Shown piece by piece: positions 14,831 to 26,029 of a stretch of 38,967 nucleotides of DNA. Under the pieces are notes generated by a model. The model did no database searches and was not told the DNA's origin. It was given only the letters and a program-made list of their open reading frames with translations. Origin of the DNA: an uncultured Pelagibacteraceae bacterium (GTDB lineage Bacteria > Pseudomonadota > Alphaproteobacteria > Pelagibacterales > Pelagibacteraceae); contig CACEFF010000008.1 in assembly GCA_902558815.1 (NCBI GenBank), positions 1 through 38,967 of the forward strand. The letters run 5' to 3'. Numbering within the stretch: the stretch's first letter is position 1; every line of letters starts with the position of its first letter. The position numbers and the translations under genes were made by a program.

Positions 14831-15696
14831 TATCTAGGCAAAATTTATCTGTTATAATTGTAAGTTTTAAGAGTGATAAAGTAATACATGACTGTATACG
14901 GTCCATAGACTCAGAAATTGAAATTATTGTAATTGATAATTCAAATAATAAAGATTTTAAAGAAATTATTGAAAAAAAATATGAGAATGTAAGGTGTATT
15001 TTGTCTGAACAAAATATTGGGATGGGAGCAGGAAATAATTTAGGTATTAAAAATACAAATAAAGATTTTGCTCTTATTTTAAATCCAGATGTAACACTAG
15101 AAATAAATGCTTTTGAGGAAATAATAAAAGCTTCTAATACTATAGATAATTTTGGACTTATGGCTCCAATTTCTTCAAATTTAGAATATCCAAATTACAA
15201 AGCAGATAATCCAGACACTATTAATCCTTTTAAGGTAAAAAGTATTGATGGCTATGCGATGCTTTTGAATTTAAAAAAACTTAGACAGATTAAAGACTTT
15301 AATTTTTTTGATGAAAATTTTTTTTTATATCTTGAAAATGATGACCTATGTAAAAGACTAGAAAAAAATAATCAAAATATTTATATAGTTCCTAAATCAA
15401 AAATAAACCACCTAGGAGGAGAAGCCGTAGATTCAAAATATGAAAGTGAAATTGAATTCTCAAGAAATTGGCATTGGATGTGGTCAAAATTCTATTTCAA
15501 CAAAAAACATTATGGTTTTTTTATTGCAACTATAAAAGTTTTAAACAATTTGATTTCAGCTCAGTTTAAATTTTTTTATTACTTAATTTTTTTTAATTCA
15601 TATAAAAGAAAAATTTATCAAATGAGATTATCTGGTTTATTTAATTCGATGATTGGAAAAAAATCTTTTTATAGACCTAAATTAGATGATCAATGA
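14824..15696 (+). CDS. GT2-family glycosyltransferase (rhamnosyltransferase-like)
   Basis: The GT-A fold is clear: LSVIIVSFKS (8-17 from the chosen start), IIVIDNSNN, NIGMGAGNN (64-72) and the metal-binding ALILNPDVTLE (83-93), then ENDDLCKRL near residue 200, as in WbbL-like rhamnosyl or deoxysugar transferases. It probably moves a dTDP-sugar made by the neighbouring operon. A TTG at 14785 would add 13 residues, but it sits inside the predicted promoter, so the ATG at 14824 (290 residues) is preferred. The C-terminal part has a hydrophobic stretch that may associate with the membrane. Its 3' end overlaps the convergent apt gene by seven bases. Confidence 0.83.
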   Translation: MSISRQNLSVIIVSFKSDKVIHDCIRSIDSEIEIIVIDNSNNKDFKEIIEKKYENVRCILSEQNIGMGAGNNLGIKNTNKDFALILNPDVTLEINAFEEIIKASNTIDNFGLMAPISSNLEYPNYKADNPDTINPFKVKSIDGYAMLLNLKKLRQIKDFNFFDENFFLYLENDDLCKRLEKNNQNIYIVPKSKINHLGGEAVDSKYESEIEFSRNWHWMWSKFYFNKKHYGFFIATIKVLNNLISAQFKFFYYLIFFNSYKRKIYQMRLSGLFNSMIGKKSFYRPKLDDQ

Positions 15697-16217
15697 CCTG
15701 GAAAATTAATTAGGTTCTCAACTTTATAATTTTTTTTAATTAATTTATCACATCCTTCTAAATCAAATAAATTAATCACAAAAATAAAAGCACTTACTTT
15801 ACCTCCTGAAATCTCAATTAACCTTGCTGCTGCCTCTGCTGTTCCACCTGTTGCAATTAAATCATCAATAATTAGAACTGAATCATTTTTATCAATAGAG
15901 TCTTTATGAACTTCAATAGTAGCAGTTCCATACTCTAATTCAAAATCTACAGAATGAACACTCGCTGGTAGTTTATTTTTCTTTCTCAATAAAATAAAAG
16001 GTTTTTTTAAAATATATGAAATTGCTGATGCAAAAACAAAACCCCTCGATTCTATTGCTGCTATTTTGTTAAAACTAAATTTTTTTGATCTGTCTACTAT
16101 TTGGTTTATTGTTTCAGAGAATGCTTTTTCGTCTTTAATTAATGTAGTTATATCCCTAAATAATATCCCTTTTTTTGGATAATCTGGAATAGATCTAATA
16201 AAATCTTTTAAATTCAT
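15690..16217 (-). CDS. apt: Adenine phosphoribosyltransferase
   Basis: A 175-residue type I phosphoribosyltransferase of normal length. IPDYPKKGILFRDIT (10-24) and the PRPP-binding loop LIIDDLIATGGTAEA are diagnostic of Apt. It condenses adenine with PRPP to AMP. Divergent from mtnP, whose reaction releases adenine, so the two are a natural pair. The 41-base gap to mtnP contains a 9-base inverted repeat that may hold back-to-back promoters. Confidence 0.95.
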   Translation of the reverse strand: MNLKDFIRSIPDYPKKGILFRDITTLIKDEKAFSETINQIVDRSKKFSFNKIAAIESRGFVFASAISYILKKPFILLRKKNKLPASVHSVDFELEYGTATIEVHKDSIDKNDSVLIIDDLIATGGTAEAAARLIEISGGKVSAFIFVINLFDLEGCDKLIKKNYKVENLINFPGH

Positions 16218-16222
16218 AATAC

Positions 16223-16244
16223 TTATTTATATAACTATAAATAA
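16223..16244. promoter_or_regulatory. Dyad between apt and mtnP, likely divergent -10 elements
   Basis: TTATTTATA (16223-16231) and TATAAATAA (16236-16244) are perfect inverted copies around the 4-base centre TAAC. Each strand therefore reads TATAAAT toward its own gene, which suits paired -10 boxes or a symmetric protein site. Confidence 0.4.
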
Positions 16245-16258
16245 ATTAATTTTTAAAC

Positions 16259-17131
16259 ATGACAATAAATAAATTAGCTATTATTGGTGGAAGTGGTCTT
16301 TATGATGTTGAGGAATTTAAAAATAGAGAATTACTAGATTTAAACACTCCATGGGGCAAACCTTCGGATAAAATTTTAAAAACTAGTTACAATAATAAAG
16401 AAGTTTATTTTTTACCTAGACATGGAAGAGGTCACTTCATATCTCCAACGAAAATAAACTTTAGAGCAAATATAGATGCGCTCAAACAATTAGGAGTTAC
16501 AGACATTGTATCAGTTTCAGCTGTAGGATCGTTAAAAGAGGATTTACCACCTGGAAAGTTTGTAATCATTGACCAGTTTATTGATAGAACATTTGCACGA
16601 GAGAAAACCTTTTTTGACGAAGAAATAGTTGCTCATGTATCTATGGCACATCCTACATCAAATGGTTTAATGAATGCATGTGAGGAAGCTATCAGAAAAG
16701 AAAAAATAGATTATAAAAGAAACGGAACTTATGTTGTTATGGAAGGTCCACAGTTTTCAACATTAGCAGAATCTAATTTATATAGATCATGGAAAGCTGA
16801 CGTAATTGGTATGACAAATATGCCAGAAGCAAAATTAGCTCGTGAGGCTGAAATAAGATATGCATCTGTCTCAATGGTAACTGATTATGATTGTTGGCAC
16901 CCTGATCATGAAAATGTTGATGTAGAACAAGTTATAAAAGTTCTTTTAGGTAACGCAGTTAAGGCAAAAAATATGATCAAAAATTTGATAGAAAATTTTG
17001 AAAATCATATTGATCCTAAAGATCCAACAAATAATTGTTTAGATGTGGCAATTATTACTGCTCAAGAAAAAAGAACTAAAAAAACTATTGATAAACTCAC
17101 AACCATTGCAGGTAGAGTTTTAAATAAATGA
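16259..17131 (+). CDS. mtnP: S-methyl-5'-thioadenosine phosphorylase
   Basis: A 290-residue PNP-family phosphorylase: IIGGSGLYDV (8-17), PRHGRGHFISP (53-63), VSAVGSL (86-92), MEGPQFST and GMTNMPEA match MtnP. The enzyme splits MTA (and often 5'-deoxyadenosine) with phosphate into adenine and 5-methylthioribose-1-phosphate in the cytoplasm. MTA is a by-product of polyamine synthesis by the SpeD-SpeE protein encoded 3 kb away. The stop overlaps the mtnA ATG by four bases. Confidence 0.93.
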   Translation: MTINKLAIIGGSGLYDVEEFKNRELLDLNTPWGKPSDKILKTSYNNKEVYFLPRHGRGHFISPTKINFRANIDALKQLGVTDIVSVSAVGSLKEDLPPGKFVIIDQFIDRTFAREKTFFDEEIVAHVSMAHPTSNGLMNACEEAIRKEKIDYKRNGTYVVMEGPQFSTLAESNLYRSWKADVIGMTNMPEAKLAREAEIRYASVSMVTDYDCWHPDHENVDVEQVIKVLLGNAVKAKNMIKNLIENFENHIDPKDPTNNCLDVAIITAQEKRTKKTIDKLTTIAGRVLNK

Positions 17132-18198
17132 GAATAGAAGGAAAAGAATATCGTACTATTTGGTTTGAAAACAATATTGTAAAAATTATTGATCAAACAA
17201 AACTTCCACATCAATTTATTATTAAAGATCTTAAAAAAGTTGAAGAAGCAATTAATGCAATAAAAATAATGGAAGTAAGAGGCGCACCTTTAATAGGAGC
17301 TACTGCTGCTTATGGATTAGTTTTAGCTATTATTGAAAATAATGATCAGTCTTTTCTAAAAAAATCAGCAGAAAATTTAATTAATTCAAGACCAACAGCA
17401 ATAAATTTAAAGTGGGCAGTTGATAGAATGATAAATAAATTATCAGGTGTCAATAGTGATAAAATTTTAGAAATAGCTTTAAATGAAGCAAACCAAATCT
17501 GCGAAGAAGACATTAAGTTTTGTGAAAATATTGGATTAAACGGTCTTAAGATAATTGAGGATATTCATAGTAAAAAAAAAGATACAGTTAATATATTAAC
17601 ACACTGTAATGCCGGCTGGCTGGCAACAATTAATTGGGGAACTGCAACTTCACCAATTTACCATGCACATAAAAAAGGTATTCCAATTCATATATGGGCC
17701 GATGAAACTAGACCTAGAAACCAAGGTGCTAATCTTACTTCTTATGAATTAAATGAAGAAGGAGTTAAAAATACAATCATAGCAGATAATACTGGAGGAA
17801 TTTTAATGCAAAGAGGTGAAGTTGATATGTGCATTGTTGGAACTGATAGAACTTTAGCTAACGGTGATGTTTGTAATAAAGTTGGAACTTATCTTAAAGC
17901 GTTGGCTGCTCATGATAATAATATTCCTTTTTATGTAGCATTGCCTAGTTCTACAATAGATTGGAATATTAAAGATCATAAAAAAATCCCAATTGAAGAA
18001 CGAAATTCTGACGAATTATCTCATATGGAAGGTCTAGATGAAAAAGGTAATGTAAAAAAGATACAAATATATCCTAGCAAAAGTAAGTCAATGAATTTAG
18101 CTTTTGATGTAACACCAGCAAAATATGTTACAGGATTGATTACAGAAAGAGGAGTGTGTGAAGCATCGGAAAAAGGATTAAAGAAATTATTTAAGTGA
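17128..18198 (+). CDS. mtnA: Methylthioribose-1-phosphate isomerase
   Basis: A 356-residue eIF2B-alpha-like isomerase of full length. MEVRGAPLIGATAAYGL (about 48-64), TILTHCNAG-type segment NILTHCNAGWLAT with the catalytic Cys, the DETRPRNQGANLT loop and GTDRTLANGDVCNKVGTY with the catalytic Asp are all present. It converts methylthioribose-1-phosphate to methylthioribulose-1-phosphate. The usual next genes of the Met salvage route (mtnB, mtnC/mtnW, mtnD) are absent here; instead a class II aldolase fusion gene follows seven bases away on the other strand. Confidence 0.93.
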   Translation: MRIEGKEYRTIWFENNIVKIIDQTKLPHQFIIKDLKKVEEAINAIKIMEVRGAPLIGATAAYGLVLAIIENNDQSFLKKSAENLINSRPTAINLKWAVDRMINKLSGVNSDKILEIALNEANQICEEDIKFCENIGLNGLKIIEDIHSKKKDTVNILTHCNAGWLATINWGTATSPIYHAHKKGIPIHIWADETRPRNQGANLTSYELNEEGVKNTIIADNTGGILMQRGEVDMCIVGTDRTLANGDVCNKVGTYLKALAAHDNNIPFYVALPSSTIDWNIKDHKKIPIEERNSDELSHMEGLDEKGNVKKIQIYPSKSKSMNLAFDVTPAKYVTGLITERGVCEASEKGLKKLFK

Positions 18199-18205
18199 AA
18201 CTAAT

Positions 18206-20239
18206 TTATCTTAAAGATGCAGCAATATTTCCACCATCTACAGTTAAAACTGCACCAGTGGTTTTTTTTGAAATAGCTAAATGAAAAAATGCTTTAGCAA
18301 CATCTTCTGCTTTTACCTCTTTTAAAAGCAAGTTTCCTTTCATATATTCATCAGTAGAAACTTCTCTAGCTTTTGCTCTAGTTTTAATCATTCCATCATT
18401 TAACAAACCACTTCTAATTCTATCAGCATTTACTCCATTCGATCTTATTCCAAGCGATCCATAATCAACTGCATATTGTTTACATAGACTTAACAAAGCA
18501 GTTTTTGGAAGACCATAAGGACCAAAGTTTTTTCCAGGATTTACTGATTGTTTGGAAATATTAAACAACAAGCATCCTTGAGTAGTTTGTTTTTTCATAA
18601 TTTTAATGGTTTCAGATGCGCAATTTTGATGTGAGAAAAAATTGTCCTCAAAACTCTTTCTTAAAATTTTATCATCTACTTCAGCTATTGAACCACCAAT
18701 TGCAGTTCCAGCATTTGAAATTAGAATATCTATTCCACCGTATTGCTCGCTAATTATTTTAAAAGCTTTTTTGACGCTATTTTTATTTCTTACATCGCAA
18801 TGCAAACAAAGATCTTTAATTTTTGACTGCATTTCTTTTACTTTTTTTTTGTTATAATCAAGTAAGACTATTTCGGCCCCATAACTTTTAAAAAGCTTAT
18901 AAGTTTCCAAACCAATTGCTCCAAAACCACCTGTGATTACAACAACATTTCCTTGAAGAATTTTTTTAGCTTTTTTAATTTTGGCTTGCTCCAATGACCA
19001 ATATTCAACATCGAATAAATCTTTTTCTGGTATAAACTTATATTTCGTAGTTTCTTCTACTGAAGAAATTACTCTTGCATTTGTCTCAGTTAAATCTCCT
19101 GCTATTTTAGAAGCATTTAAACTATCACCTACACTAAATAATCCAACATTTTGGACTAAAATTACTCTTGGAGAGGTATCAAGCATTGTTTTTTTGCCTT
19201 TTACTTTCCTCTTATTATTGTTGAAATATTTAATATATTTTTTTCTATAATTCTGAAAACTTTTTTTTGCTAACTTTTTAAAATCATCGATACTTGAATT
19301 TCGCTTAGGCGTAATTACTAATGGAAAAGGTTTTACTCTAATAACGTGATCTGGAGTAGCAGTCCCAATAACTGAATACCTTTTAACTTCTTTGCCATTT
19401 ATAAAATAATTTAAAGTTTTATTAGATCTGTAATTTAGAATAAATTTTTGATCCTTAGTTTCTGACAATAATCCTCTTAAAATTGGAGCAATTTCATCTG
19501 GTTTAAATTTAGTATTATAATTTTTTATTTGTTTTATTTTTTTTCTTTTAATTTTTTTTACTGCATTTTCAGCAATTGACACATATTTTATCATTAAATC
19601 ATAAGATTTTTTAGCATCATTATCAAAAGTGAAAATTCCGTGATTTAAAAGTATTAAACAATTAATTTTTGGATTTTTTGAATAAACTTCGTTAATTTTT
19701 TGGGCCAAACCAAAACCTGGCATTACATAAGGCACAATACTAACTTTTGAGCCAAAAATTTTTTTGCATAAATCTTTTCCATTTGATCTATTAGTGACAT
19801 TCATTATTGCATCTGAATGTGTATGATCAACAAACTTAAAAGGTAAGAAAGCGTGAAGAAAAGTTTCTACAGAAGGGTTTGGAGATTTTATATCTATTAA
19901 ATTTCTTTTTTGAAATGCAACCATATCATCATCACTAAGGTATTTTTTGTTTTTCAGTGATAGCAGAGGTTGTAATTTTACTGCTGGTAAACCCTCAGGT
20001 TCAATTTCAGCCATGTCCCAGCCACTACCTTTAACACAGAGAACATCGTACTTTTTTCCATCTATATCTTTAATTGATGTTTTTACGGAAGTATTTCCTC
20101 CACCATGTAAAACTAGTTCACTATTTCTTCCTAATAGCCTCGTTGTATATACACGAAGAGCCATATCTTTAGAGTACCCAAGACTTCTATATTTTTTTAT
20201 GTATTTATTTGCTTCTGTGTTTGACCAATTGTTTTTCAA
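18206..20239 (-). CDS. Class II aldolase / short-chain dehydrogenase fusion
   Basis: A 677-residue two-enzyme protein. The N-terminal class II aldolase (about 25-340) shows HGGGNTSVK (45-53), NPSVETFLH with Glu125, HTHSDA with zinc ligands His139 and His141, and NHG with His200. The C-terminal SDR (about 430-677) has TGGFGAIG (436-443), SNAG (508-511) and YGLPK (Tyr575, Lys579). The architecture equals RhaEW, which cleaves rhamnulose-1-phosphate to DHAP and lactaldehyde and oxidises the latter. Its place among apt, mtnP, mtnA and speDE suggests methylthioribulose-1-phosphate or 5-deoxyribulose-1-phosphate as substrate instead. The start is TTG, supported by an AAGGAAGG ribosome site at 20245-20252. 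Confidence 0.88.
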   Translation of the reverse strand: MKNNWSNTEANKYIKKYRSLGYSKDMALRVYTTRLLGRNSELVLHGGGNTSVKTSIKDIDGKKYDVLCVKGSGWDMAEIEPEGLPAVKLQPLLSLKNKKYLSDDDMVAFQKRNLIDIKSPNPSVETFLHAFLPFKFVDHTHSDAIMNVTNRSNGKDLCKKIFGSKVSIVPYVMPGFGLAQKINEVYSKNPKINCLILLNHGIFTFDNDAKKSYDLMIKYVSIAENAVKKIKRKKIKQIKNYNTKFKPDEIAPILRGLLSETKDQKFILNYRSNKTLNYFINGKEVKRYSVIGTATPDHVIRVKPFPLVITPKRNSSIDDFKKLAKKSFQNYRKKYIKYFNNNKRKVKGKKTMLDTSPRVILVQNVGLFSVGDSLNASKIAGDLTETNARVISSVEETTKYKFIPEKDLFDVEYWSLEQAKIKKAKKILQGNVVVITGGFGAIGLETYKLFKSYGAEIVLLDYNKKKVKEMQSKIKDLCLHCDVRNKNSVKKAFKIISEQYGGIDILISNAGTAIGGSIAEVDDKILRKSFEDNFFSHQNCASETIKIMKKQTTQGCLLFNISKQSVNPGKNFGPYGLPKTALLSLCKQYAVDYGSLGIRSNGVNADRIRSGLLNDGMIKTRAKAREVSTDEYMKGNLLLKEVKAEDVAKAFFHLAISKKTTGAVLTVDGGNIAASLR

Positions 20240-20269
20240 AATTACCTTCCTTGTGGATAAAGTTTTACA

Positions 20270-20312
20270 GTAGTTTTTTATTTGAAAGAAGTAAAAAAAT
20301 TTGTTTAACTAC
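20270..20312 (+). promoter_or_regulatory. Possible stem-loop in the leader of speDE
   Basis: GTAGTT (20270-20275) can pair with AACTAC (20307-20312), and inside it TTTTA (20276-20280) with TAAAA (from 20292). The ribosome site GGGGAG (20326-20331) lies just after it. A leader structure that controls polyamine gene expression is conceivable; it does not match a riboswitch class that I know. Confidence 0.25.
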
Positions 20313-20337
20313 AACAGAACGAGTCGGGGAGCTAAAA

Positions 20338-21381
20338 ATGGTTAAAAAAGTAGGGGAGCACATTACTTTAGATATAATTGGAACTACGAAAGAATACGAT
20401 CCTTCAGTTTTTGAAAAAGTAATTAATAAAATCGCGAAAGCAGCAGATGTAACCATATTAAATATTTCCAAATATAAATTTGAACCTCAAGGTTTTACTA
20501 TTTTAGCATTATTGGCTGAGAGCCACATTAGCTTTCATACTTTCCCAGAAAAAGGAATAATAAGTTTTGATTTTTTTACATGTGGAAAAATAAGTCCATC
20601 TATTGCAATTGATATAGTTAAAAAAGAATTTAAACACACTAGAATAGTTAAAAAAGAATTTAATAGGGATACGAAAGCTTTATACCACGATATTTATAGT
20701 TCACCTGGTTTACAAAAATCATATGTTGTTAACGATGTATTGGAAGATTTTAAATCTAAAGTAGGTCAGCATATTGAAATTTTAGATCTAGAACAATTTG
20801 GTAAATCATTATTTATAGATGGAGAAATACAAGTAGCAGCATCTGATGAACATTTATATAGCTCAACTTTTGTTGGTGCAGGTTTAAATTTAAACAAAGG
20901 TAATGAAAGAGCAGCAATAATCGGTGGAGGCGATGGGGGTGTTGCAAGAGAATGTATTTCAAAAAAATTTAACTTTATTGATTGGTATGAACTTGATCCA
21001 GAAGTTGTTGAAGTCTGCAATAAACACTTGGGGGATATAAGTAAAAAAGCAACAGAAAAAAATTCTGTAAAATGTGTTTGGGGTGACGCGTTTCAAAATA
21101 TTAAACTTGTCAAAGAAGATACCTATGATCATATATTTGTTGATCTAAATGACGATCAGTTTTGCATTGATTTAGCTGCGAAGAATATGGACTCCTTAGT
21201 TAGAATTCTTAAACCAAAAGGAGTAATTACCGCTCAAGTTGGTAGCCAAGATAAAAAACCTCTTCAAGTTGAAAACTGGCTCAATGTATTTAATCATCAC
21301 TTTGGAAACACCAATTTAGCTAGAGTTTACATACCTAGTTTTGACTGTTCTTGGAATTTTTCTTCATCAATAAATCATTAA
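20338..21381 (+). CDS. Fused S-adenosylmethionine decarboxylase / aminopropyltransferase (SpeD-SpeE)
   Basis: A 347-residue protein joining two polyamine enzymes. Residues 1-125 are a SpeD proenzyme: AESHISFHTFPEKG contains Ser62, the expected self-cleavage and pyruvoyl residue, with His67 and Cys82 (FFTCG) as partners. Residues 145-347 are an aminopropyltransferase: GGGDGGVAREC (197-206), ELDPEVVEVC (218-227) and a YDHIFVDLNDD site with Asp269 as likely catalytic acid. The usual YHE after the DE pair is YSS (174-176), and the DSSDP-like motif is DLNDDQ, so the acceptor amine may not be putrescine. A TTG frame extends upstream to 20209 but overlaps the aldolase gene; the ATG with GGGGAG seven bases before it is the start. 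Confidence 0.88.
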   Translation: MVKKVGEHITLDIIGTTKEYDPSVFEKVINKIAKAADVTILNISKYKFEPQGFTILALLAESHISFHTFPEKGIISFDFFTCGKISPSIAIDIVKKEFKHTRIVKKEFNRDTKALYHDIYSSPGLQKSYVVNDVLEDFKSKVGQHIEILDLEQFGKSLFIDGEIQVAASDEHLYSSTFVGAGLNLNKGNERAAIIGGGDGGVARECISKKFNFIDWYELDPEVVEVCNKHLGDISKKATEKNSVKCVWGDAFQNIKLVKEDTYDHIFVDLNDDQFCIDLAAKNMDSLVRILKPKGVITAQVGSQDKKPLQVENWLNVFNHHFGNTNLARVYIPSFDCSWNFSSSINH

Positions 21382-23011: not shown

Positions 23012-23685
23012 TGGATTTTGAGTTAATGATTAATAGCTTTCCTAAGTTACTGAGTGCAGCAACAATCACTTTAAAACTTTTGTCAGTTTCTTTAATTATT
23101 GGATTATTTATTGGGTTATTATTTGCAATTTTAAGATTAAATAAGAATATTTTTCTAAATAAATTTGCATATGGATACTCTTACTTATTTAGAGGCACTC
23201 CATTACTAGTTCAAATATTCATAATTTATTTTGGACTAGGTCAAATTGAATATTTAAGAACGACGTTCTTATGGGTTATTTTAAAGGAGCCTTATTGGTG
23301 TGCAATTATTGCTTTTGCTTTAAATACTGGAGCTTATACTTCTGAAATATTAAGATCTGCATTTCAAACAATCAAGCCAGGTTTTATTGAAGCAGGTAAA
23401 AGCTTAGGGATTTCAAGTAGGATAATTTTTTATAAGATTCAAATTCCGATTGCCATTAGGCAATCTCTCCCTGCTTACGGTAATGAAATAATTTTAATGA
23501 TGAAAGGAACCTCTCTTGCAAGTACAGTTACTATTATGGATCTAACCGGTGTTGCAAAATACATTATTTCTACAACTTTTAGACCAGTTGAAGTATTTAT
23601 TGTTGCTGGTGGAATTTATCTTTTTATGACATTTGTTATTCATAATATTATTAAATATTTGGAAAAAAAATATAGTTTTACTTGA
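23011..23685 (+). CDS. Amino-acid ABC transporter permease (HisM-like)
   Basis: A 224-residue membrane protein homologous to the previous one, with YLFRGTPLLVQIFIIYFG and an EAA loop (EAGKSLGISSRIIFYKIQIP). It would pair with the HisQ-like protein to form the channel. The ATG at 23011 overlaps the upstream stop and has GGGG just before it; the TTG one codon upstream is less likely. The next gene overlaps in the same TGATG fashion and is not an ATPase, so the HisP-type subunit must come from elsewhere. Confidence 0.88.
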   Translation: MDFELMINSFPKLLSAATITLKLLSVSLIIGLFIGLLFAILRLNKNIFLNKFAYGYSYLFRGTPLLVQIFIIYFGLGQIEYLRTTFLWVILKEPYWCAIIAFALNTGAYTSEILRSAFQTIKPGFIEAGKSLGISSRIIFYKIQIPIAIRQSLPAYGNEIILMMKGTSLASTVTIMDLTGVAKYIISTTFRPVEVFIVAGGIYLFMTFVIHNIIKYLEKKYSFT

Positions 23686-24512
23686 TGTCAGGTTTAACAA
23701 CAAAACAATTAGATCATTATAATAACAAGGGATACATCTCACCTGTTAATGCCTTAAGCTTTTCTGAAGCAAAAGAAATTAGAGATGAAATAGAAAAAAT
23801 TGAAAAAGATTGGCCCGATGCACTTAAAGGAATTAACCGGAACTATATTCATTTAATCTCTCCAATATTTAATAAAGTTTGTTTACATAAAAATATTTTA
23901 GATGCTGTTGAAAGTATAATTGGTAAAAATATTCTTATTTGTGGAACTACACTTTTTATAAAAAACCCAAATGAAAAAGGTTTTGTAAGCTTTCATCAAG
24001 ATGCCAAATATATAGGGCTAGAGCCTCATAATTGGGTAACTGTTTGGTTAGCCGTTACTGATGCAAATGAACAAAATGGGTGCATGAGAATGTTGCCAGG
24101 TTCACATAAAGAAAATTTAAAGACCCATGAGCAAAAATTTGATGAAAATAATTTATTAACCCGTGGTCAAACAATAAAAAACGTCCCCTTAGATAAAACA
24201 GAACCAATAAATCTTAAAGCAGGGCAAATATCACTACATCATCCAACAATTGTTCATGGATCAGGATTAAATCAAAGTAATGATAGAAGAATAGGATTTG
24301 TTATTCAAAGTTACATAGGAACTAATGTTAATCAAATGATTGGAAAAATGTATGTTCAAAAGGCAAGAGGAGAAGATAAATTTAAATATCACGAATATTC
24401 CAATATACCACTTGAATTAATGGGAAAAAATGAAGTTATTTCACAAAATAAAGCCAATGAAGAGTTATCAAAGATTTTTTATAGTGGCTCAAAAAAAATT
24501 GGAAAATTTTAA
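23685..24512 (+). CDS. Phytanoyl-CoA dioxygenase (PhyH) family oxygenase
   Basis: A 275-residue Fe(II)/2-oxoglutarate oxygenase. The iron triad is visible as FHQDA (His104, Asp106) and IVHGSG (His191), and an Arg in NDRRIGFVIQSY (201/202) should bind 2-oxoglutarate. It is translationally coupled to the HisM-like permease (TGATG), which suggests that it hydroxylates or opens the compound that the importer brings in. It lacks the ectoine hydroxylase signature, so EctD is unlikely. The substrate is unknown. A TTG one codon upstream is a less likely start. Confidence 0.83.
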   Translation: MSGLTTKQLDHYNNKGYISPVNALSFSEAKEIRDEIEKIEKDWPDALKGINRNYIHLISPIFNKVCLHKNILDAVESIIGKNILICGTTLFIKNPNEKGFVSFHQDAKYIGLEPHNWVTVWLAVTDANEQNGCMRMLPGSHKENLKTHEQKFDENNLLTRGQTIKNVPLDKTEPINLKAGQISLHHPTIVHGSGLNQSNDRRIGFVIQSYIGTNVNQMIGKMYVQKARGEDKFKYHEYSNIPLELMGKNEVISQNKANEELSKIFYSGSKKIGKF

Positions 24513-24514
24513 TG

Positions 24515-24536
24515 ATAAGCTAATTAGATTGCTTAT
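24515..24536. terminator. Possible bidirectional terminator hairpin
   Basis: ATAAGC (24515-24520) pairs with GCTTAT (24531-24536), and AAT/ATT extend the stem across one bulged T. It lies between the convergent dioxygenase and radical SAM genes, reaching into the end of the latter. No clear T-run follows. Confidence 0.35.
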
Positions 24537-26029
24537 GTGCAAATGTTATCATTAATATTCCTTCTTGAAGCAGAGTTAATGAACTTTGTATTTTTTGAAT
24601 TTCCATAATAAATACGATTGTACCACTCGGATGGCATAAGAACCAACATAACTCTTTGAAAAAATGAATACCACTGATTCCATTTTAATGTGTAAATAAA
24701 CTTAAAAAATCTCCATCTAGAAAAATAAAATTTAAAGAAGGCTAGTCTTTGTAAATTTTCAAGTTTTTTTGGTGAGACAGCTGCCCAGTCAGCATTGAAT
24801 TGATCTAAACGAAAAGTTTTCCAGTCAATATCTTTATTCTTAGCATATTTTTCAAGCCACATATCATATAGTTCAGTTCCAGGTAGTGGTGTAGCTTTAT
24901 GAAAGGAAGCTCTTTCCAAATCTAAAGAGCATGCAAAATTAATTGTATTCATTATCTCTTCTTCAGTTTCAGTAGGCAGCCCTACCATAAAAAAACCAAC
25001 AGCATCTATTCCTGATTCTTTAACCCATCTAACAACTTTTCTAACTAAATTTTTGTCTAGACGTTTTTTAATCATATCCAAAATTCTCTGATTAGCATTT
25101 TCAATCCCTAGAGCCATATAATAGCATCCAGATTTTTTCATCATTGCAAGTAGTTCAGGATCTAATTTATCTATCCTTACTCCATTTGGTAAACTCCAAT
25201 GCACTTTAATTTTTCTTTTTATTAATTCTTCACACACTCCCATCGCATGACTTCTTCTAAGAGTAAAATTGTCATCTTCAATTTGAATTTCTTTTACACC
25301 AAAATCGTTAACAAGTTTTTCAATTTCATCTACAACTTTAACTGGATCTCTATAACGCATTTTTCTTCCTGCAGTAATTGGTGCACTACAATAAGTACAT
25401 TGATAAGGACATCCACGAGTTGTTATCACTGGAGCAAACGGTGATTCTTTGTATATAGTTCCATGAGGCATTGTTTGAGGATAACTTCTAGGATCCATGA
25501 TTTCCCAAGCTGGTTCACCAAAATCATCTACATCATTAATAAAATTTCTAGTTTGATCACCAATTTTCGTAGAGTACATTATCTTTTTTTTAAATAATTC
25601 ACTTAAATCCGGGTTTGATTTTTTTGGTTTACCATTTTCCCAATAGAATAGACCTTCAACTTTACTTGGATCCATACCTGAAGCAAGCTGAGTTATAGTT
25701 CGCTCTCCTTCACCAGCTGCAGCATAATCTGCCCCAGAGTCTATTAAGCTTTGTGCTGGATCACATATAATGTGAGCACCTCCAATAATTGTTTTTAATC
25801 CAAATGCTTTTGCTTTTTTTACTTCCAAACAAAGTTCAGAGAAATATGTAGACATTGCTGTCACACCAACTAAATCCCAATCTTCAGGATTATATTTAAT
25901 CTCTTCTCTTAAATTATCTAAAATTCTAACGTTATGACCCTCTTTTTTTAAAGCAGCAGCCAAATATCCAAGTCCAAGATGTGGAGAAAATTGTGCTCCA
26001 GTTTCTGCTCTAAGTAATAAAACGTTCAT
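24533..26029 (-). CDS. B12-binding-type radical SAM protein (BchE/Elp3-like)
   Basis: A 498-residue protein. The N-terminal 140 residues form a cobalamin-binding-like Rossmann domain (HLGLGYLAAALKKEGHNV, IIGGAH, AAAGEGERT) without the DxHxxG lower-ligand motif, as is common in this class. The radical SAM core begins with RGCPYQCTYC, giving the cluster ligands Cys207, Cys211 and Cys214, and continues with IEDDNFTL and GVRIDKL. The C-terminus past about 400 is specific to this family. Members carry out methylations, cyclisations or rearrangements; the reaction here cannot be inferred. It is on the opposite strand from the importer/dioxygenase set and shares no operon. Confidence 0.85.
   Translation of the reverse strand: MNVLLLRAETGAQFSPHLGLGYLAAALKKEGHNVRILDNLREEIKYNPEDWDLVGVTAMSTYFSELCLEVKKAKAFGLKTIIGGAHIICDPAQSLIDSGADYAAAGEGERTITQLASGMDPSKVEGLFYWENGKPKKSNPDLSELFKKKIMYSTKIGDQTRNFINDVDDFGEPAWEIMDPRSYPQTMPHGTIYKESPFAPVITTRGCPYQCTYCSAPITAGRKMRYRDPVKVVDEIEKLVNDFGVKEIQIEDDNFTLRRSHAMGVCEELIKRKIKVHWSLPNGVRIDKLDPELLAMMKKSGCYYMALGIENANQRILDMIKKRLDKNLVRKVVRWVKESGIDAVGFFMVGLPTETEEEIMNTINFACSLDLERASFHKATPLPGTELYDMWLEKYAKNKDIDWKTFRLDQFNADWAAVSPKKLENLQRLAFFKFYFSRWRFFKFIYTLKWNQWYSFFQRVMLVLMPSEWYNRIYYGNSKNTKFINSASRRNINDNICT

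Follow-up and report, generated by a model that had tools for sequence, protein, structure and literature searches.

The window analyzed here is a stretch of 38,967 nucleotides from an uncultured Pelagibacteraceae bacterium of the order Pelagibacterales (SAR11; GenBank assembly GCA_902558815.1, contig CACEFF010000008.1), and the subject of this study is a gene in it that encodes a class II aldolase fused to a short-chain dehydrogenase/reductase (SDR). The genome comprises 1,105,900 bases in 25 contigs and is 87.9% complete. A preliminary description of the window had placed apt, mtnP, mtnA, this aldolase-SDR fusion and a joined speD-speE gene side by side; all five open reading frames lie where it put them, and curated models agree with their assignments (Table 1). 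The start of mtnA overlaps the end of mtnP by 4 bp. The fusion gene is convergent with mtnA, with 7 bp between the two stop codons, and divergent from speD-speE. For speD-speE, the ATG at 20338 is more likely to be the start codon than the mechanically chosen TTG at 20209, and its product is the predicted source of methylthioadenosine (MTA). The family name of NF006192, "bifunctional aldolase/short-chain dehydrogenase", gives neither substrate nor pathway. A few kb from this block there are genes for a PhyH-type dioxygenase (23682-24512) and a B12-binding radical S-adenosylmethionine (SAM) protein (24533-26029). In an Rfam scan of the window, a tRNA was the only match.

Table 1. Genes and parts of genes at the mtn locus of the window
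Feature	Positions	Strand	Evidence
apt, adenine phosphoribosyltransferase (adenine recovery)	15690..16217	-	NF002634 209 bits, cut-off 170
mtnP, S-methyl-5'-thioadenosine phosphorylase	16259..17131	+	NF006492 442 bits, cut-off 437; TIGR01694 312 bits, cut-off 275
mtnA, methylthioribose-1-phosphate isomerase	17128..18198	+	TIGR00512 417 bits, cut-off 279
Aldolase-SDR fusion, 677 aa, TTG start	18206..20239	-	NF006192 888 bits, cut-off 639
Aldolase half of fusion, residues 1-425	18965..20239	-	Residue alignment and fold match 3m4r
SDR half of fusion, residues 428-677	18206..18958	-	Conserved residues and dN/dS
Divergent intergenic region, fusion/speD-speE, 98 bp	20240..20337	.	
speD-speE, adenosylmethionine decarboxylase joined to aminopropyltransferase	20338..21381	+	TIGR03330 97 bits, cut-off 75.65; PF01564 (Spermine_synth), PF17284

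Exchange of the fusion with a stand-alone aldolase in Pelagibacterales

We searched 147 genomes of the order for mtnA, speD-speE, a stand-alone class II aldolase and the fusion. The numbers are raw genome counts, uncorrected for kinship, and only strong matches were counted for the aldolase, so that two genomes with a weak paralogue alone were left out. The four genes were found in 80, 84, 63 and 17 genomes, respectively. All 17 fusion genomes had mtnA and none had the stand-alone aldolase, and the fusion was present in none of the genomes that lacked mtnA. The 80 mtnA genomes comprised 62 with the aldolase and 17 with the fusion, none with both, and G144, whose contig ends inside a gene island described below. 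None of the 63 aldolase genomes had the fusion and 62 of them had mtnA; in the exception, G036, the aldolase lies at the end of a contig. In the window's genome, at 87.9% completeness, there was no match to the stand-alone SAR11 aldolase, and the fusion occupies its slot.

This slot is well defined. mtnA and the aldolase were on the same strand in all 61 genomes in which they share a contig, and at most 300 bp apart in 54 of these. In many genomes the gap between mtnA and speD-speE is approximately 640-660 bp, whereas the fusion would need 2034 bp; an aldolase was therefore suspected there, and fetched regions confirmed it. Among 20 fetched regions, 14 had a class II aldolase gene (209-221 aa) that precedes speD-speE on the same strand, three had the fusion and three had a nucleosidase-like gene. 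In the window's own family, stretches with both mtnA and speD-speE had either the aldolase or the fusion in between. We also examined 80 SAR11 fusion loci, the best 80 of 299 confirmed, all of which belong to Pelagibacter, Pelagibacteraceae or Pelagibacterales and partly overlap the 147 genomes. speD-speE lies 70-108 bp from the fusion (between alignment ends) in all 76 of these loci whose contig reaches it, and mtnA, mtnP or apt was inside the fetched flank in 56 of the 80, two loci ending too soon. In the order as a whole, mtnA and speD-speE were both present in 76 genomes and both absent in 59; speD-speE occurred alone in eight and mtnA alone in four.

Five of the stand-alone aldolases were scanned. 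Their best scores were with L-fuculose-phosphate aldolase models (194-212 bits) and then with the ribulose-1-phosphate aldolase model (162-180 bits), in both cases below the cut-off, and they scored 64-76 bits against the MtnB model TIGR03328, the cut-off of which is 137. In the Protein Data Bank, the relatives of one slot aldolase included FucA (176 bits) and 6btd/6btg (128 bits), which passages of PMC6079011 tie to DrdA of Bacillus thuringiensis. By these scores the SAR11 slot aldolase is similar to FucA and to Ald2, the class II aldolase of the dihydroxyacetone phosphate (DHAP) shunt, and is not MtnB.

Of the eight genomes that have speD-speE but no match to mtnA, six (G011, G026, G032, G064, G066 and G130) carry a gene of 174-178 aa between apt and speD-speE. 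Three of these genes were scanned and resemble MTA/S-adenosylhomocysteine nucleosidase models, below the cut-off. In the remaining two genomes, G036 and G109, speD-speE is near a contig end. Such nucleosidase-like genes are located at L132:8253-8780, L133:9820-10344 and L137:7501-8031, and also in L157, L159 and L160; judging from the model matches, their products would free adenine and leave the sugar unrecovered. Since the aldolase, the fusion and the nucleosidase-like gene were all found at this place, we regard them as three states of one slot. In a quickly computed mtnA tree of 75 rows, in which many branches are weak, a minimum of 19 switches between aldolase and fusion is needed, and three disjoint starred SAR11 sets each hold both states. 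If this gene tree is right, at least three exchanges of the partner of mtnA have thus occurred.

In single genomes, assorted cargo is also found between mtnA and its aldolase or fusion partner (L134:8330-10804, L135:7143-9613, L128:7326-9360, L130:7033-8288). By eye it includes genes similar to those for tryptophan synthase beta and a sugar aminotransferase, among others; the slot therefore resembles an insertion hot spot. A larger insertion is an island of seven genes (BKACE, FAD monooxygenase, extradiol-type dioxygenase, TRAP DctPQM and FAA hydrolase), which resembles a TRAP-fed aromatic ring-cleavage cassette. It directly follows the fusion in 22 of the 80 SAR11 loci, where the fetched region covers all seven genes in 18 cases and the first two or four in the other four, and in a subset of SAR11 it stands between the fusion or aldolase and mtnA (L063:10038-17104, L045, L048, L049 and others; L161 in G074 and L153 in G144). 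We considered whether the fusion is part of this island and ruled it out: all 22 island genomes retain mtnA, 21 nearly in full length and one as a 52-residue piece at a contig end. In addition, the order in G088 is fusion, island, mtnA, and in G074 the island adjoins a stand-alone aldolase instead.

Neighbours of the fusion across Alphaproteobacteria

In the sister family, all three genomes with mtnA have mtnA and then the fusion on one strand. Two of them, G010 and G083, have the order apt-mtnP-mtnA-fusion with the alignment ends of mtnA and the fusion 8 bp apart, and the third is cut by a contig end. In a sample of 367 genomes of the class (raw genome counts again), the fusion was found in 76 and falls into two identity bands, with 65 genomes at 44% or more and 11 only at 34% or less, the latter rhamnose-like. 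mtnA was present in 61 of the 65 genomes with a close fusion and in one of the 11 with a distant fusion only, as against 169 of the 367 overall. Thus the co-occurrence with mtnA that the preliminary description had proposed as a check was found both here and in all 17 fusion genomes of the order. In 25 of the 65, mtnA is followed within 3 kb by the fusion on its own strand; in the window's genome the fusion adjoins mtnA on the other strand.

From the 169 mtnA genomes, 80 regions around mtnA, approximately one per family, were sampled. The fusion was downstream on the same strand in 12 and a stand-alone aldolase was present in 33 (30 downstream, three upstream); both were seen in no region and neither in 35, four of which have too short a flank. 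Searched genome-wide, a close fusion was found in none of the 33 aldolase genomes and in 13 of the 35 with neither gene beside mtnA. Further, in 39 of the 65 close-fusion genomes the fusion had not been found beside mtnA, and we viewed 20 of these 39 loci: five directly follow mtnP or mtnP-apt, one abuts a cut-off mtnA, and one is on a 9-kb contig without mtn-type or sugar-alcohol neighbours, in a genome without an mtnA match. The other 13 are taken up below.

Tistrella has the order mtnP-mtnA-fusion. In four annotated plasmid records, homologues with 45-48% identity share a stretch with mtnK-mtnA and with genes for a sugar regulator and a sugar ABC transporter; all except that of Shinella have a RuBisCO-like gene there too. 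An unannotated Ensifer record has the same gene set. In rhizobial and Devosiaceae plasmids (L162, L163, L166, L252), the fusion, mtnK-mtnA and the sugar ABC transporter are accompanied by transketolase/DXS-like split genes and the RuBisCO-like gene; two uses of methylthioribulose-1-phosphate may possibly exist side by side on those plasmids. Next to lsr genes for the uptake of autoinducer-2, Sinorhizobium meliloti has the aldolase half by itself (L250:7001-8251; 40% identity over residues 1-418).

Domains, residues and family tree of the fusion protein

The fusion contains the Pfam domains Aldolase_II (residues 31-225) and adh_short (residues 431-609). Its Glu125, His139, His141 and His200 align with Glu72, His91, His93 and His154 of the stand-alone aldolase. 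These residues match the acid and the metal ligands that are expected in class II aldolases, which makes Glu125 the putative catalytic residue and the three His putative metal ligands. The three His are kept in all 38 aligned fusions; Glu125 is kept in 34 and is replaced by Asp in the four that are rhamnose-linked. In the SDR half, Ser562, Tyr575, Lys579, Asn509 and Asp461 are identical in all 38, and Asp461 suggests the use of NAD(H). In the predicted structure (mean pLDDT 82.8), the N-terminal half has its best fold match in 3m4r, a class II aldolase domain (TM 0.93, normalized to target length). SDR matches of the C-terminal half are loose (TM 0.5-0.64 by target, rmsd 8-12), and residues 563-585 and 606-613, in the region of the SDR active site, are poorly modelled. 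The median dN/dS was 0.052 for the aldolase half and 0.047 for the SDR half (512 pairs of 90-98.5% identity from 72 sequences); since the two halves are constrained to a similar degree, the SDR half is not a passenger. The start codon of the fusion gene is GTG in 39, TTG in 31 and ATG in one of the 71 loci counted (of 80 SAR11 loci), on the assumption that the start is the aligned first residue, and the near-absence of ATG hints that translation is kept low.

In a tree of 38 fusions, the 11 SAR11 proteins cluster together (100/100), next to a member of the class that is linked to mtnA (100/98), and four fusions from annotated rhamnose loci form a long separate branch (100/100). Rhizobial fusions in a polyol context, including one unannotated Ensifer row, form a clade of their own (100/100). 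At 34 positions the 29 rows that are neither rhamnose- nor polyol-type share a fixed residue and the rhamnose group has a different fixed residue; these positions include Glu125 and four near the SDR tyrosine.

Since some sources give class relatives close to an mtn-linked fusion (P0125, P0151 and others) the name "rhamnose utilization protein RhaD" or "rhamnulose-1-phosphate aldolase", and since the two-domain layout is like that of RhaEW, a rhamnulose-1-phosphate aldolase/lactaldehyde dehydrogenase, identity with RhaEW had to be considered. The window fusion scores 442 bits against the rhamnose family TIGR02632, whose cut-off is 567.75. Full-length relatives in the 60 of 316 plasmid records listed have either at least 42.8% or at most 30.5% identity, and the rhamnose clade is split off with full support and has Asp in place of Glu125. 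The rhamnose isomerase model TIGR02629 matched in none of the 147 genomes of the order, although the control was weak (matches in three of 14, none over the cut-off) and RhaA and the kinase were not searched for; no rhamnose isomerase, kinase or transporter gene was seen among the scanned neighbours in the window. The association with rhamnose genes, which the preliminary description had named as counting against its reading, was therefore not found. A rhamnose function for the window fusion was rejected on the TIGR02632 score, the identity gap, the separate clade and the missing TIGR02629 match, and it is scarcely conceivable that the protein is RhaEW. The RhaD and rhamnulose-1-phosphate aldolase names on mtn-linked relatives are likely to be wrong.

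Proposed pathway and alternatives

We propose the following route. The speD-speE product would release MTA, which MtnP would split into adenine, to be recovered by Apt, and methylthioribose-1-phosphate, and MtnA would isomerize the latter to methylthioribulose-1-phosphate. The aldolase half of the fusion would cleave this into DHAP and methylthioacetaldehyde, and the SDR half with NAD+ would oxidize the aldehyde to methylthioacetate, producing NADH. With 5'-deoxyadenosine, the same enzymes could give DHAP and, via acetaldehyde, acetate. Because the fusion stands in the slot of the stand-alone aldolase, we regard this as a variant of the DHAP shunt in which the fusion, judged from its genomic context, likely replaces Ald2. 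The acireductone dioxygenase MtnD (PF03079) was above the cut-off in none of the 147 genomes, with a weak match below it in G007 and, among 14 controls, five matches of which two were over the cut-off. The preliminary description had noted that mtnB, mtnC and mtnD are absent and had named a full mtnBCD route elsewhere in the genome as counting against its reading; the mtnD part of that route is missing at this cut-off in all 147 genomes, and genome searches for MtnB and MtnC were not made. Together with the co-occurrence with mtnA and the exchange with an Ald2/FucA-like aldolase, this supports the earlier suggestion that the fusion is the aldolase of the MTA pathway. We consider that the fusion very probably catalyzes the aldolase step and, given this step, that oxidation by the SDR half is fairly likely by analogy. 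The two-domain protein as the last steps of a DHAP shunt, cleavage followed by NAD+-dependent aldehyde oxidation, is on the present genomic data a probable assignment.

Several observations weigh against this assignment. The window fusion is outside the mtnPA operon and is not co-transcribed with it. The speD-speE query had no match at the cut-off in the sister family, where two of the three genomes are 68% and 54% complete, and four of the 65 close-fusion genomes of the class have no mtnA match. Of the 20 further loci viewed, 12 lack mtn, apt and sugar-alcohol genes nearby (among them, one locus shows a weak match to speD-speE and one begins 237 bp from the end of its contig), and one, in genome G198 without mtnA, is a sugar-alcohol cluster. 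The polyol-type clade is placed among the mtn-linked fusions, with weak support for that placement, and has 30 of their 34 diagnostic residues; because of this sharing, the diagnostic residues are no proof of an mtn substrate.

One alternative suggested by the last points is that the fusion is an aldolase-dehydrogenase for a sugar alcohol or another ketose phosphate, and is beside mtnA by history. Some rhizobial relatives are found with glycerol-3-phosphate dehydrogenase, ugpC-type transporter and SDR genes, others with an SDR gene and genes for an FGGY kinase and an iron alcohol dehydrogenase, and G198 has a similar cluster. However, the rhizobial group is a separate, fully supported clade, mtnA or mtnP directly precedes the fusion in several lineages, and the aldolase and the close fusion exclude each other genome-wide in both the order and the class sample, and we hold this alternative to be very unlikely. 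Another possibility is that the main substrate is 5-deoxyribulose-1-phosphate from 5'-deoxyadenosine, a radical-SAM by-product, and that MTA is secondary. The abstract of PMC10986504 describes known shunts that take both substrates, the three sister-family genomes with mtnA and the fusion have no speD-speE match, and the radical SAM gene of the window could supply 5'-deoxyadenosine. As mtnA tracks speD-speE in the order and the fusion adjoins speD-speE in all 76 of the SAR11 loci whose contig reaches it, this seems rather improbable to us.

The direction of the SDR reaction, which the preliminary description did not specify, is a separate matter. Oxidation of an aldehyde to an acid is unusual among SDRs, and for this reason we keep as an unlikely, though serious, alternative that after the same aldolase step the SDR half works reductively, with 2-methylthioethanol (or ethanol) as the released product, like the Rhodospirillum rubrum and Escherichia coli shunts. 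By their names, the structural neighbours of the SDR half are enzymes of alcohols and ketones, and passages of PMC10986504 describe 2-methylthioethanol as an intermediate in R. rubrum and as the final product in E. coli ATCC 25922. Among the genes that recur beside aldolase-type loci, inspection by eye showed no dehydrogenase that would reveal the direction. On the other hand, Asp461 fits NAD(H), a cofactor pair that favours oxidation in aerobic cells. We favour oxidation because RhaEW, the assayed relative of this layout, needs NAD+, is inactive with NADH and forms no DHAP without NAD+, according to passages of PMC3870299.

Among the papers listed in a literature search, none links an aldolase-SDR fusion to MTA salvage in its title or the beginning of its abstract. 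Passages of PMC10986504, PMC12632272, PMC6079011, PMC8102628, PMC5893883, PMC6302742 and PMC10418091 mention no such fusion in this pathway, and by term counts the main texts of the SAR11 papers PMC8437039 and PMC11698098 mention MTA and do not contain the word aldolase. The DHAP shunt and RhaEW are known already; none of the listed papers joins the two. An extended proposal combines an oxidative DHAP shunt for both substrates, free exchange with Ald2 in a mobile SAR11 slot, the identity of many "RhaD" proteins with this enzyme, and methylthioacetate as an unreported sulfur product of SAR11; whether all of this holds together seems to us evenly balanced.

SAR11 bacteria, which belong to the most abundant cells of the ocean, are considered to require reduced sulfur from their surroundings, so that what becomes of the sulfur and carbon of MTA is important to them and to their output of sulfur compounds. 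If the proposal is true, the fusion fills the gap in the pathway after MtnA, the small acid methylthioacetate is predicted, and a substrate is provided for a large group of proteins, part of which now has rhamnose names. At least 8000 candidates (all 8000 scored) match the Tistrella homologue at an E value of 1e-40 or better, not all of which need be of this type. The slot with its alternatives of aldolase, fusion or nucleosidase is a natural experiment for the assignment of substrates.

Among known systems, fusions of methionine-salvage enzymes to later steps have been described in plant DEP1, with a class II aldolase-type domain (passages of PMC6079011), and in Tetrahymena MtnBD (passages of PMC5893883). 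They resemble the window protein in this respect but belong to the dehydratase route towards methionine, for which the 147 genomes of the order have no dioxygenase at the cut-off. The DHAP shunt (MtnP or MtnN/MtnK, MtnA and Ald2, in R. rubrum and E. coli) and DrdK-DrdI-DrdA of B. thuringiensis have a class II aldolase at a like place in the pathway, and the window shares mtnP and mtnA with the shunt, both above the model cut-offs. However, the stand-alone Ald2-type aldolase was not matched in the window's genome (87.9% complete); the window aldolase belongs to a different class II subfamily and is joined to an SDR, whereas the known shunt reduces the aldehyde by a separate alcohol dehydrogenase. 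The nearest assayed architecture known to us is RhaEW. It is in a separate clade with approximately 30% identity, has Asp for the putative catalytic Glu and other residues beside the SDR tyrosine, and has rhamnose genes rather than mtn genes as neighbours, but its domain order, metal ligands and Ser, Tyr and Lys residues are common to the window fusion.

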